DNA of 43,001 bases, from assembly GCA_001795535.1 (NCBI GenBank), contig MGPK01000019.1, forward strand, positions 23,229-66,229, written 5' to 3'. Under the pieces are notes generated by a model that made no database searches, was not told where the DNA came from, and saw nothing but the letters and a program-made list of their open reading frames with translations. Shown in pieces: positions 28,046-31,680 of the stretch. Source of the stretch: Deltaproteobacteria bacterium GWA2_54_12 (lineage in GTDB: Bacteria; Desulfobacterota; GWC2-55-46). The position numbers and the translations under genes were made by a program. Numbering within the stretch: position 1 is the stretch's first letter; each line of letters begins with the position of its first letter.

Positions 28046-28182
28046 ACCAGTCAATTTCCTTTTGACTCAGGCTTTCAAATCCGGTAGATTGTAAGTTCAC
28101 TAGTATTCTGTTAATAAGTTGTGTGTCGTGGTCCGCTTTGGCGTTTGCGGGGCGGTTCCATTTGTGCTATTATGTCCCGGCT

Positions 28183-28779
28183 ATGCCTACTCTGAAGAGA
28201 CTTCGCCTGTTGATGTTGAAGCCAAGACTGAAAACCTCGCTTATAGCCGGTTTTACGCTGCTCGCAGCCTTGGCCGCGGCCGAATGTTTTGCCGCGATGG
28301 ACCCTGCTCCGGCAGACTGGCCGAATTACGAATATAACAGGGTCCCGGGCGAGTTCAAGAGGAACAAGTACGGGATAATCGACCCGAGCCCTGATGTCGT
28401 CTCCCTTCAGCAGCTCCCGGTCGACACCTACGGCTTCGTGGACTGGGGTAAGGCGATGAAAGACGGCATAATAGCCCCGAGAGAATCGATAAGCGGCAAG
28501 CCTCCCAGGCTCAGCCCCGAGGACAGCGAGCCGTTCAGCGCGGACATCCTCATAAAGTCCAAAATGAAGTTCATGCCGGATGTCATCTTTCCCCATAGCG
28601 CACATACTGAGTGGCTCAAGTGTTCCGTCTGCCACCCCAGGATTTTCAAGAAAAAAGCCGGAGCCACCCCTATAACCATGGCCGGCATCTGGAACGGCCA
28701 GTTCTGCGGCAGGTGCCACGACAAGGTTGCATTTCCCACAAGAAACTGTTTCAAATGCCACTCAGCCCCCAGGCAGTGA
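28183..28779 (+). CDS. c7-type triheme cytochrome (nanowire_3heme-like), exported
   Basis: A 198-residue protein with an N-terminal signal segment (TSLIAGFTLLAALAAAECFA) and a C-terminal triheme domain. Three C-x-x-C-H sites lie close together (C-S-V-C-H, C-G-R-C-H, C-F-K-C-H), with extra His ligands in F-P-H-S-A-H and the PRIFKKKAGATPITM segment. This matches the c(7)-type cytochrome triheme domain used for periplasmic or extracellular electron transfer. I start at 28183; a GTG/ATG choice further upstream adds a segment without homology. It is followed after 32 bp by the first luxR-like gene. Upstream (28046-28182) is an AT-rich gap with a small AGTCAA/TTGACT dyad at 28049-28067. Confidence 0.87.
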   Translation: MPTLKRLRLLMLKPRLKTSLIAGFTLLAALAAAECFAAMDPAPADWPNYEYNRVPGEFKRNKYGIIDPSPDVVSLQQLPVDTYGFVDWGKAMKDGIIAPRESISGKPPRLSPEDSEPFSADILIKSKMKFMPDVIFPHSAHTEWLKCSVCHPRIFKKKAGATPITMAGIWNGQFCGRCHDKVAFPTRNCFKCHSAPRQ

Positions 28780-28811: not shown

Positions 28812-29417
28812 ATGCCTTTTGACGACCTTGCTAAAAACGAACTCATAAGCATACTTGAACTTATAGACCAGGCGCAGCGTTGCTCAGGGGCCTCAGGCCT
28901 GCAGTCTCTCATATTGAACGCGGCCCTCCTCCTTGAGGCCGAATTCACCGTATGCGGGCTCGCGCGTACCGGGACGGACGGACTGCCCGTCGTGACTTCT
29001 TATGTAAACGGCAACTACCCGGAAGAATGGGTCAGAAGATACATTGAGAGCGCTTATCATCGGAAAGACCCGGTAGTGCGGTTCCACACCAAGTACGCGC
29101 TTACCCAGACCTGGACGAATGTATTCAGGCAGTTCGAGGACAAGGCGGCCAGGCAGGTCGTTAATGAAGCTTCCGATTACGGCTTGAGGTTCGGGATCAC
29201 CGGGGCCCTGTATGTCCCTGAAATGGACAATATCGCCATGTTCACATTTGCCGGGAGGGCGGATAAGTTCGGCTCGCACCACAAGAGAATAGCCGATATC
29301 CTTTCGTTGCATTTCACCCGGGCCCTTGCTGGCTGCGCCCGTGAATCACTTTTTGCCACAGGGCATCGTTTAGACGATGAAGGTCACCCGAAAGAACGGG
29401 AGGGGAAGGCATGGTGA
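28812..29417 (+). CDS. LuxR-type autoinducer-binding protein lacking a DNA-binding domain
   Basis: A 201-residue protein made only of the acyl-homoserine-lactone-binding domain. The ligand residues have the LuxR spacing exactly: Trp73, Tyr77, Asp86-Pro87 and Trp101 (LuxR Trp66, Tyr70, Asp79-Pro80, Trp94), then YGLRFGITGAL. The sequence ends at about 200 with a charged tail and has no helix-turn-helix; the stop codon overlaps the next gene by 7 bp. It could bind signal and heterodimerise with the full LuxR beside it, as the anti-activator TrlR does with TraR, or act as a signal buffer (inference). AAAGGAGC is the ribosome site. Confidence 0.87.
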   Translation: MPFDDLAKNELISILELIDQAQRCSGASGLQSLILNAALLLEAEFTVCGLARTGTDGLPVVTSYVNGNYPEEWVRRYIESAYHRKDPVVRFHTKYALTQTWTNVFRQFEDKAARQVVNEASDYGLRFGITGALYVPEMDNIAMFTFAGRADKFGSHHKRIADILSLHFTRALAGCARESLFATGHRLDDEGHPKEREGKAW

Positions 29418-30169
29418 GCTACAGCAACTTTTCGAAAAGGGAACTGGCGGATATCCTGGATGTCATTCACTCTTCTCTGCAATGCAGGGAGGAGGGGGAC
29501 ATAAAGACCCTGCTTGACCGGATAAGGGGGCTTGTCTCCGGTGATTTTGGCATCTGCGGCATAGGCAAGGGCGGCGAGGACGGGCAGGGCGGCCTTAACG
29601 CCCCTCCCCACATAATAAACCTCAACTACCCGATGGAGTGGCTGCAGATATACGGGGCCAATCAGCTCTATAACCAGGACCCTATCGTACTGCGCAACCT
29701 GTCAAACCCCGGCTCCCAGCTGTGGGACGAGACCTACTCCATGTTCGACGGCAAGCTCTCGAGGATGTTCCTCACATCGCGCGACTTCGGCTTGAACCAC
29801 GGCGTAAGCGGCGGCATGCATAACCAGGACAGTAACACCACTACCTTGTTTTCGTTCTCCGGGAAAGGCGACTGGTTCAAGGACCATCAGAAAAAGATAC
29901 TCGCCCTTCTCGCCCCCCACCTCCACCAGGCGCTGGCCCGGATTTATAAGACGGCGCAGGCCAATTCGCGCATGGGGACCCTGTCAAAGCGGGAGTGGGA
30001 GATAGTCTCCTGGGTCAAGGCTGGCAAGACCAACTGGGAGATATCCATGATACTCAGCATAAGCGAGCGGACCGTGAAGTTCCATGTCCAGAACATCGAG
30101 AGGAAGCTCGAAGCCGTCAATAAGGCCCATGCCGTAGCGATCCTGATGGAACAGGGTCATTTAGAGTAG
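29411..30169 (+). CDS. LuxR family quorum-sensing transcription factor
   Basis: A 252-residue LuxR regulator. The N-terminal autoinducer domain keeps Trp77, Tyr81, Asp90-Pro91 and Trp105 with canonical spacing. The C-terminal GerE-type helix-turn-helix (about 188-250) reads LSKREWEIVSWVKAGKTNWE then ISERTVKFHVQNIERKL, including the conserved Glu and Gly of the DNA-binding domain. It starts within the upstream luxR-like gene (7-bp overlap) and its last 53 bp overlap the end of the convergent luxI gene. It should bind the lux-box-like sites at 30821-30840 and 30881-30900. Confidence 0.92.
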   Translation: MVSYSNFSKRELADILDVIHSSLQCREEGDIKTLLDRIRGLVSGDFGICGIGKGGEDGQGGLNAPPHIINLNYPMEWLQIYGANQLYNQDPIVLRNLSNPGSQLWDETYSMFDGKLSRMFLTSRDFGLNHGVSGGMHNQDSNTTTLFSFSGKGDWFKDHQKKILALLAPHLHQALARIYKTAQANSRMGTLSKREWEIVSWVKAGKTNWEISMILSISERTVKFHVQNIERKLEAVNKAHAVAILMEQGHLE

Positions 30170-30770
30170 ACATCCAGCTGAAGAACTCAGGCCTTTTGAC
30201 TGCCGCGGACTCTTCGAACGCCCGCCAGTCGAGCACGGCTATGCCGGACATCACACCTTCCCCCAGCGGCTTGAAGTCAGCGACCGGCACGAACGGGAAA
30301 AACCTCTTCAGGTAAAAGAAGTACCTCTGTTCGATAATCGTGATAAGATATCTGGAATCGTTCTTAAGCGACCAGTGGTATATGGCCTTGTACAGCAGGT
30401 GGGCCAGGCTTAAAGACGCGACAGTGTCCCCCCGCCTGTCCTTCCTGACGCATATCCTGGTCGATTCGGACATGCCGGGTACTTTGCTGAAACCCTCTTC
30501 GGGCAGGAGGGAGGCGAATTCTTTTTCGATCATGTAAGGCAGCGGCGCGGGTATGAGCCGCACATGGCCGACGAGCTCGGAATGTTCGAATATCCCTATG
30601 CTTTCGGCGAAGTCGTCGTAAGGGTCCCTGTCCAGGCCGTCGGCGGTTGGCGGCACCCACCGGAGTTCATCCCTGAAGACATCGTGTCTGAGCCTCAGGG
30701 CAGAGTCGACCTCTTCGGGGGCGGAGATGGTCTTTACCAGGTACTTTTCCTCTTGAAATATAAGATCCAT
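30117..30770 (-). CDS. LuxI-type acyl-homoserine-lactone synthase
   Basis: A 217-residue autoinducer synthase making an AHL from SAM and an acyl-ACP or acyl-CoA. The invariant LuxI residues align by spacing: Arg28, Phe32, Trp38 (RHDVFRDELRW), Asp49 and Asp52, Arg71 in GHVRLIP, and Glu102/Arg105 in SESTRICV. The acyl specificity cannot be predicted. The start is fixed by AAGGAGGTG five bases before the ATG. It is convergent with luxR and overlaps it by 53 bp. A lux-box-like dyad 50 bp upstream of the start suggests positive feedback. Confidence 0.9.
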   Translation of the reverse strand: MDLIFQEEKYLVKTISAPEEVDSALRLRHDVFRDELRWVPPTADGLDRDPYDDFAESIGIFEHSELVGHVRLIPAPLPYMIEKEFASLLPEEGFSKVPGMSESTRICVRKDRRGDTVASLSLAHLLYKAIYHWSLKNDSRYLITIIEQRYFFYLKRFFPFVPVADFKPLGEGVMSGIAVLDWRAFEESAAVKRPEFFSWMSTLNDPVPSGSLRHGPY

Positions 30771-30792
30771 GTCAGCACCTCCTTTTGCCCTC

Positions 30793-30798
30793 TTTTTA
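30793..30798 (-). promoter_or_regulatory. Predicted luxI -10 element
   Basis: On the minus strand, TGC-TAAAAA forms an extended -10 that starts 22 bp beyond the dyad at 30821-30840. Transcription would begin near 30786, centring the dyad at about -44, the position of an activating lux box. Confidence 0.45.
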
Positions 30799-30820
30799 GC
30801 AGGTGACGGGCTTAAGATGT

Positions 30821-30840
30821 AACTGGCACGAGTAGCAGTT
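30821..30840 (-). promoter_or_regulatory. Lux-box-like operator for luxI
   Basis: The 20-bp sequence AACTGGCACGAGTAGCAGTT has AACTG and CAGTT arms separated by 10 bp, with further matching pairs inside (AC and GT). This is the NNCTG-N10-CAGNN layout of LuxR-family binding sites. Its place relative to the predicted luxI promoter fits. Confidence 0.6.
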
Positions 30841-30880: not shown

Positions 30881-30900
30881 TCCTGTACCTTGGTACAGTC
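30881..30900 (+). promoter_or_regulatory. Canonical lux-box-like operator facing radC
   Basis: TCCTGTACCTTGGTACAGTC contains CTGTACC and GGTACAG as perfect 7-bp arms two bases apart. It matches the Vibrio fischeri lux box (CCTGTA-N6-TACAG core) at 13 of 20 positions by my alignment. The core is also CTGT-N8-ACAG, the E. coli LexA box, so an SOS operator is the main alternative. Confidence 0.65.
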
Positions 30901-30966: not shown

Positions 30967-31680
30967 TTGGATAATAGCGCTATCGGTAGCGGTCCGGGAA
31001 ATGGGGAATTCGCTTCTTCAGGGAGGGCAGGGCAAGGGCCTCCCAGGGGGAGTAAGCCAGGAGAGATGCTGGAGCGGCTTTTATCCTACGCCGTAAAAGA
31101 AAAAGATGTCGCAGATGTTTCCAGCGGGCTCATGAAGAGGTTCAAGGGCCTCCGTGGCGTGCTGGACGCGAGCCACGAGGAGCTGAAGGATTCGGGCTGG
31201 GTAGGCGAAAACGGCGCGGTTTTTTTGAAGTTCGTGAAGGAGGCTGCCGGGGTCTACCTGAAAGAGCGGATGATGGGCAGGGATGCCCTGAGAAACATGA
31301 AATGCGTGCTTGACTATCTGAGCCTGACGCTCTCCGGGGAACGGATAGAGAAGTTTCTTGCCATATACCTGAATTCGAAAAACGAGGTGCTCTCGGTCGA
31401 TGTGCTCCACGAGGGCACGATAAATCAAACAGTCGTATACCCGAGAAAGGCTATAGAGAGGGCATTCAGGCATAAGGCCTGCGGCGTCATATTCGTGCAC
31501 AACCATCCCAGCGGGGACTCAACCCCGTCAGCCATGGACAGGCAGCTTGCCAGGACGCTTGACAGCGCCGCGGCCGCCGTGGACCTTTCCGTCGTCGATC
31601 ACATCGTAATAGGGAAGAACAGGCACTTCAGCGCGAGGGAAAACGGCTGGATGGCCGGCGGGCCTTTGCGAAAAGCGTAA
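30967..31680 (+). CDS. radC: RadC family protein with intact JAMM motif
   Basis: A 237-residue RadC/UPF0758 protein. The helix-hairpin-helix region (LMKRFKGLRGVLDASHEELK) precedes the MPN domain, which keeps the whole metal motif: Glu in VDVLHEGTINQTVVYPRKA, then VHNHPSGDSTPSAMDRQL, then DHIVIGKNRHFSARENGW. It starts at a TTG, supported by GGAGG five bases upstream; the first 35 residues are Gly/Ser-rich and lack the usual GHRxRLRER start. RadC proteins are induced in DNA uptake and repair contexts, but their biochemistry is unsettled. It is transcribed divergently from luxI across a 196-bp gap with two dyads. The next 102 bp (31681-31782) hold nothing I recognise. Confidence 0.88.
   Translation: MDNSAIGSGPGNGEFASSGRAGQGPPRGSKPGEMLERLLSYAVKEKDVADVSSGLMKRFKGLRGVLDASHEELKDSGWVGENGAVFLKFVKEAAGVYLKERMMGRDALRNMKCVLDYLSLTLSGERIEKFLAIYLNSKNEVLSVDVLHEGTINQTVVYPRKAIERAFRHKACGVIFVHNHPSGDSTPSAMDRQLARTLDSAAAAVDLSVVDHIVIGKNRHFSARENGWMAGGPLRKA

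Follow-up and report, generated by a model that had tools for sequence, protein, structure and literature searches.

A conserved LuxR-type protein without a DNA-binding domain is tied to luxI in a deltaproteobacterial groundwater order

Two LuxR-type genes and a luxI gene form a compact locus in an uncultured deltaproteobacterial groundwater order, and the first of the two LuxR-type proteins (here S) ends after its autoinducer-binding domain (ABD). By its phylogeny and substitution rates, S is an old, selected and conserved HTH-less LuxR of single origin. HTH-less LuxR proteins have so far been represented by isolated examples (TrlR, CerN) and by lists; S is a conserved, selected gene family that is tied to luxI and spread over several families of the order. 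What appears to be new in these genome comparisons is the deep conservation of S in a deltaproteobacterial lineage, its tie to luxI, and an allele exchange that takes in three genes. We put at about even the chance that S is an AHL-dependent anti-activator of the adjacent full-length regulator (F), setting the threshold of positive feedback and likely acting as its heterodimer partner.

Results

Locus organization and protein domains

The locus lies in a window of 43,001 nucleotides, the whole stretch of DNA that was analysed (Table 1). An initial annotation made from the letters alone had described S as a protein of 201 residues that lacks an HTH and whose gene overlaps that of F by 7 bp, and reading-frame coordinates and Pfam both agree. 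The Pfam matches agree with the protein types it had named: S has Autoind_bind only (71 bits, E 9.9e-20; cut-off 23) and no GerE, F has Autoind_bind (69.1 bits) and GerE (72.5 bits), both above the curated cut-offs, and LuxI matches Autoind_synth at 74 bits against a cut-off of 24. Its placement of the host near the Desulfobacterota likewise fits the nearest named relatives ("Deltaproteobacteria bacterium"). Bit scores of this size, together with conservation in about 20 relatives, exclude a chance origin of the locus. F, S and LuxI are the sole LuxR/LuxI genes detected in the source assembly (~80% complete).

Table 1. Features of the S/F/luxI locus, in window positions.
Feature	Position	Strand	Size or basis
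S, HTH-less LuxR-type protein, autoinducer-binding domain only	28812-29417	+	201 aa
F, full-length LuxR-type regulator, ABD and GerE HTH	29411-30169	+	252 aa
LuxI-type AHL synthase (predicted), convergent with F	30117-30770	-	217 aa
Antisense overlap of F and luxI, 3' ends	30117-30169		53 bp, from coordinates
Proximal candidate operator AACTG-N10-CAGTT, upstream of luxI	30821-30840		
Distal candidate operator CTGTACC-TT-GGTACAG, between luxI and radC	30883-30898		
radC-like JAB-domain gene, divergent from luxI	30967-31680	+	Pfam RadC 125 bits

The invariant AHL-synthase residues recognized earlier in LuxI form a complete set of nine (R28-F32-W38-D49-D52-R71-F85-E102-R105), and the best solved relatives of this protein are LasI and EsaI; we infer that LuxI makes an AHL. 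By domain content F is a LuxR-type AHL receptor, predicted to bind AHL. The LuxR-type ligand residues of S are W73, Y77, D86, P87, W101 and G128, and each of these AHL-contact positions is invariant in 22/22 relatives. The predicted fold of S (pLDDT 88, pTM 0.83) has the CviR ligand-binding domain and other LuxR receptors as its best solved matches. S and F are about 24-41% identical, depending on the segment, and fall into separate clades. In the last helix of the domain, P166, H169, Q170 and R174 (S numbering) are conserved in F only and relaxed in S, so that F-like dimerisation could be lost and a non-pairing S is possible.

The minus-strand orientation of luxI and its overlap with the 3' end of F, details absent from the initial annotation, recur in other genomes: by gene coordinates, the overlap measures 50-71 bp in nearly all relatives. 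Nearly all of these lengths are 50, 53, 56, 62 or 71 bp and correspond to one relative frame, in which the two protein ends constrain each other. Upstream, a triheme c7-type cytochrome gene (TIGR04257 nanowire_3heme; window 28123-28779) ends 32 bp before S and is preceded by a PilB-type ATPase gene. This gene order is kept in the family, so S-F and the cytochrome may share one transcript. The window holds a second RadC-like gene at 1374-2078, and in two relatives (L043 and L045) a pair of full LuxR genes and luxI come after S.

Distribution, descent and selection

A search of the full set of 48 genomes in the order gave an Autoind_bind match in 28. S is present in 22 of these 28 LuxR-bearing genomes, every time directly upstream of F and, in 18 of the 22 loci, at a spacing of -23 to +24 bp. 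All 22 S proteins stop shortly past the domain and have unrelated tails. They form one clade (support 98/94), which holds after the addition of outgroup LuxR sequences that were chosen with an HMM from other classes of the phylum. The two-LuxR pair had been proposed as real rather than a local frameshift, and the survey of relatives bears this out: the same HTH-less protein in 22 genomes, within one old clade, rules out a local frameshift or an assembly error. One genome of the same class but outside the order (G051) has a broken S fragment that is placed inside the S clade, so S either predates the order or was transferred. Among 395 genomes sampled, those of phylum members outside the class of S contain no short LuxR.

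Between close pairs of genomes, dN/dS is 0.16-0.35 for S, and F in those pairs has 0.07-0.22, indicating that S is under selection, constrained less than F. Mobile sources of the gene were also considered. No relatives of S were found among viral contigs, and plasmid matches were confined to LuxR-type proteins only ~30% identical, covering <80% of S. In family f1 the locus occupies a fixed chromosomal neighbourhood, and on these three grounds a mobile or viral origin was rejected.

Retention and loss of S with luxI

A clear LuxI is encoded in 24 genomes of the order, 21 of them with S. The remaining three comprise G033, with no S within 567 bp upstream of F, and two genomes whose contigs end in the locus. 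Conversely, S without a clear luxI occurs in one genome of the order only (G027), in which both luxI and F are disrupted. The flank tree places the joint loss of S and luxI at two points, once for L048, L053 and L057 and separately for L058. No remnant of S was found in these four luxI-less loci, which still have F, the distal operator and radC. The G027 locus (L056, 7650-9010) has an early stop and a frameshift in the HTH part of F as well as frameshifts in luxI, with S, the proximal operator and radC intact; by these lesions it is a circuit caught in decay. Finally, luxI and F occur without an adjacent S in three f11 relatives (L063, L066, L068) and one f5 relative (L059); the f11 loci indicate that S is an accessory to the circuit and not a requirement.

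Operators and the radC-like gene

The gap between luxI and radC contains two palindromes of the common form CTG-N10-CAG, one proximal to luxI and one towards radC. The proximal operator reads CTG-N10-CAGTT in 28/28 luxI loci and begins with AACTG in 26, two loci being off at one outer base; its inner bases are asymmetric, and it occurs at one site in the source genome. About 24 nt after it, close to the luxI start, stands TGCTAAAAA, an extended -10-like element; judged by known lux boxes, the proximal operator would thus be placed as a class II LuxR activator site. In most relatives (L036, L042, L045 and others) the -10-like element ends ~7 nt before the luxI ATG, so the luxI mRNA may be leaderless there. 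Additional sequence with a Shine-Dalgarno-like GGAGG precedes luxI in the window and in its genus (window 30740-30840).

The distal type, CTGTAC-N4-GTACAG, has 0-3 exact sites per genome, and a reversed-pattern control gave zero. With at most three exact sites per genome, no genome-wide regulon can be derived. The source genome has a single further exact box of the distal type (L103 5008-5023, contig C66), located ~78 bp ahead of a putative lipoprotein gene and downstream of a lon-type protease gene. At the locus itself, the distal operator fronts the divergent radC-like gene at an activator position. This box outlives luxI and S, and synteny is also kept where both have been lost, suggesting that the radC-like gene may be a conserved target of F. 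A radC-like gene divergent from luxI is found in nearly all family members. The simplest reading of this arrangement would be that F drives luxI, as positive feedback, and radC. A box search upstream of S found no operator there, so S-F seems to lie outside the control of the same box.

Allelic variation between close relatives

Among close relatives whose flanks are 80-98% identical, F and LuxI are only 44-48% and S 53-63% identical. In genus g6 (L039 versus L046), for example, identity is 87-98% for flanking proteins but 63% for S, 45% for F and 48% for LuxI; for the window versus L033 in genus g1, it is 80-93% for the flanks, 53% for S, 47% for F and 44% for LuxI. The window and L035 are 84% identical in S and 95-96% in F and LuxI. 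LuxI and F trees join g1 members with g6 members and split both genera. AU tests with the genus held together reject that constraint for LuxI (p 8e-5 and 2e-6) and for F, with p far lower; for S it is not rejected. A partial Mantel analysis of 14 loci, to be read as indicative only, gave an F-LuxI distance correlation of 0.95 after flank distance was removed. On the same indicative basis (14 loci), S distance correlates mainly with the flanks (0.73) and, beyond the flanks, shows a partial r of 0.50 with LuxI and 0.54 with F (p 0.0002). Trees and distances together suggest that F and LuxI are transferred jointly, and that S mostly stays but adapts or partly moves. Since S stayed with its genus during these F and LuxI swaps, the S-F interface is not strictly locked. 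A luxI-less control pair (L048 versus L053) has F at 89% and flanks at 93% identity, with no divergence island in F. Alleles of the predicted signal and of its receptor are swapped together between conserved flanks, the pattern of a pherotype locus, whose alleles would be predicted to differ in signal specificity.

The clearest mosaic is found between L042 (G011) and L047 (G018), whose DNA is mostly 92-100% identical but contains three blocks of only ~53-83% identity, in S, F and luxI, and an additional divergent intergenic stretch towards radC. The blocks cover S codons ~72-122 (the pocket, from W73), F codons ~52-166 (the pocket) and LuxI codons ~8-206 (the body); identity is about 98-100% in the HTH segment and in the F-luxI overlap. 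In S, pS is 0.51 in the block versus 0.07 outside it (Fisher p 3e-7), and synonymous sites give Fisher p of 1e-22 for F and 2e-7 for LuxI, all with block limits chosen post hoc. The mosaic resembles the outcome of recombination confined to the signal-specific parts of the three genes, and no other observation argues as strongly that S may sense the same AHL as F. As it comes from one pair of metagenome-assembled genomes of one groundwater series, a chimeric assembly is possible; the intact reading frames and the coincidence of block limits with domain limits speak against a chimera.

Discussion

Role of S

S is best read as a modulator of F because it forms one clade, is under selection, keeps all six contact residues, is lost together with luxI and is tightly paired with F, and because the S pocket diverges between L042 and L047, where the F pocket and the LuxI body have been exchanged as well. 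The initial annotation had likewise suggested a built-in modulator, a view now supported indirectly by the co-loss, the kept pocket and the pocket exchange. In the anti-activator reading, LuxI would make an AHL, and F-AHL would bind the operators and turn on luxI, as positive feedback, and radC. S would be co-produced with F from one operon, bind the same AHL and pair with F through the ligand-binding domains. Such a pair would be short of one DNA-binding domain, and the operator would not be held. S would thereby raise the threshold and damp positive feedback, as TrlR does for TraR and, by a different logic, CerN for CerM. Loss of luxI would leave no signal circuit to brake, and S would be lost too. 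Against an anti-activator stand the relaxed F-type residues of the last helix, the occurrence of S with swapped F partners, and the S-less f11 and f5 loci.

The first two of these points would also suit the main rival, an AHL buffer or sink, in which S binds the signal made by its own cell, makes no contact with F, and delays or smooths the response. Such a role would be consistent with the intact ligand residues in 22/22 S proteins and with the retention of S only alongside luxI, and sequestration has been proposed for ABD-only proteins (Subramoni et al. 2015, PMC4338825). We nevertheless regard a buffer as rather unlikely: it would require high expression of S, close S-F gene pairing and shared descent better match a physical partnership, and the tested precedents, TrlR and CerN, both work by pairing. 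Alternatively, S with AHL could be a positive partner that stabilises or loads F, or that forms a heterodimer at the asymmetric proximal luxI operator, whose inner bases could suit one DNA-binding domain; S and F also look co-transcribed. This is improbable, given that the two-operator layout is unchanged in the S-less f11 relatives and that two lineages keep F without S. A functionless, decaying duplicate would account for the faster evolution of S relative to F and LuxI (as between the window and L035) and for one broken S fragment (L062), but it is very hard to reconcile with the dN/dS values, with intact S reading frames in 22 genomes of three families, with invariant ligand residues, and with an S that is still intact at L056 despite broken F and luxI.

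The anti-activator reading also takes in the allele swaps. Recombination between strains would exchange those parts of LuxI, F and S that carry signal specificity, and a new AHL allele would arrive with its own receptor pocket, S being retuned or left unchanged. More tentatively, with rather less than even probability, the whole may be a three-part AHL pherotype locus in which recombination between close relatives replaces the LuxI body, F pocket and S pocket together and leaves the HTH, operators and flanks unchanged; S would then be a permanent, AHL-specific component by which changes of signal allele are buffered or gated. The swapped signal-specific parts amount to a natural test of how bacterial signal "languages" change. 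The swaps provide natural genome pairs with near-identical backgrounds and different LuxI/LuxR pockets, so that a change of AHL specificity without breakage of the circuit, and the role of a receptor lacking a DNA-binding domain, become directly testable.

Comparison with known systems

In the peptide pherotype loci comQXP and agr, the signal gene and the sensor part of the receptor are allelic, and the flanks and the output domain are conserved. The S/F/luxI locus resembles them in that its signal gene and sensor parts vary, with flanks and output domain conserved. Unlike them, its signal is a predicted AHL, and the variation affects a synthase body and two LuxR pockets, with the HTH constant. 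A limited search of the open-access literature found no AHL case termed a "pherotype"; the matches were all peptide systems or reviews. Outside Pseudomonadota, AHL genes have been described before, for example in Nitrospirales (PMC12342949).

ABD-only proteins, like S in having an autoinducer-binding domain without a DNA-binding domain, have been described as often near full LuxR genes, with sequestration or heterodimers proposed (Subramoni et al. 2015, PMC4338825). The available portion of that survey does not analyse a clade, co-loss with luxI or operators, as is done here. TrlR and CerN are experimentally known HTH-less LuxR antagonists (PMC11655674). TrlR, from octopine-type Ti plasmids of Agrobacterium, is like S an HTH-less LuxR homologue, and acts on TraR, a full LuxR present in its own cell. 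It is given as 88% identical to TraR (PMC11655674), a near copy of its partner, whereas the much lower identity of S to F marks no near copy; S is instead an old separate clade, kept across families beside F and luxI. CerN of Cereibacter sphaeroides, encoded with CerM, CerR and CerI, acts with AHL, is 31% identical to its full-length partner and has all six pocket residues; CerM is bound to DNA in the absence of AHL and is released by CerN-AHL (PMC11655674). Like S, CerN is HTH-less, has the full pocket set and adjoins LuxR and LuxI genes. In contrast to the CerN locus, luxI in the window is convergent with F and overlaps it, and CerN has been studied in one species, while S shows long conservation and allele exchange. 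By architecture, S would belong with HTH-less LuxR modulators of the TrlR/CerN kind, for which AHL-dependent pairing with a full-length LuxR would be predicted.
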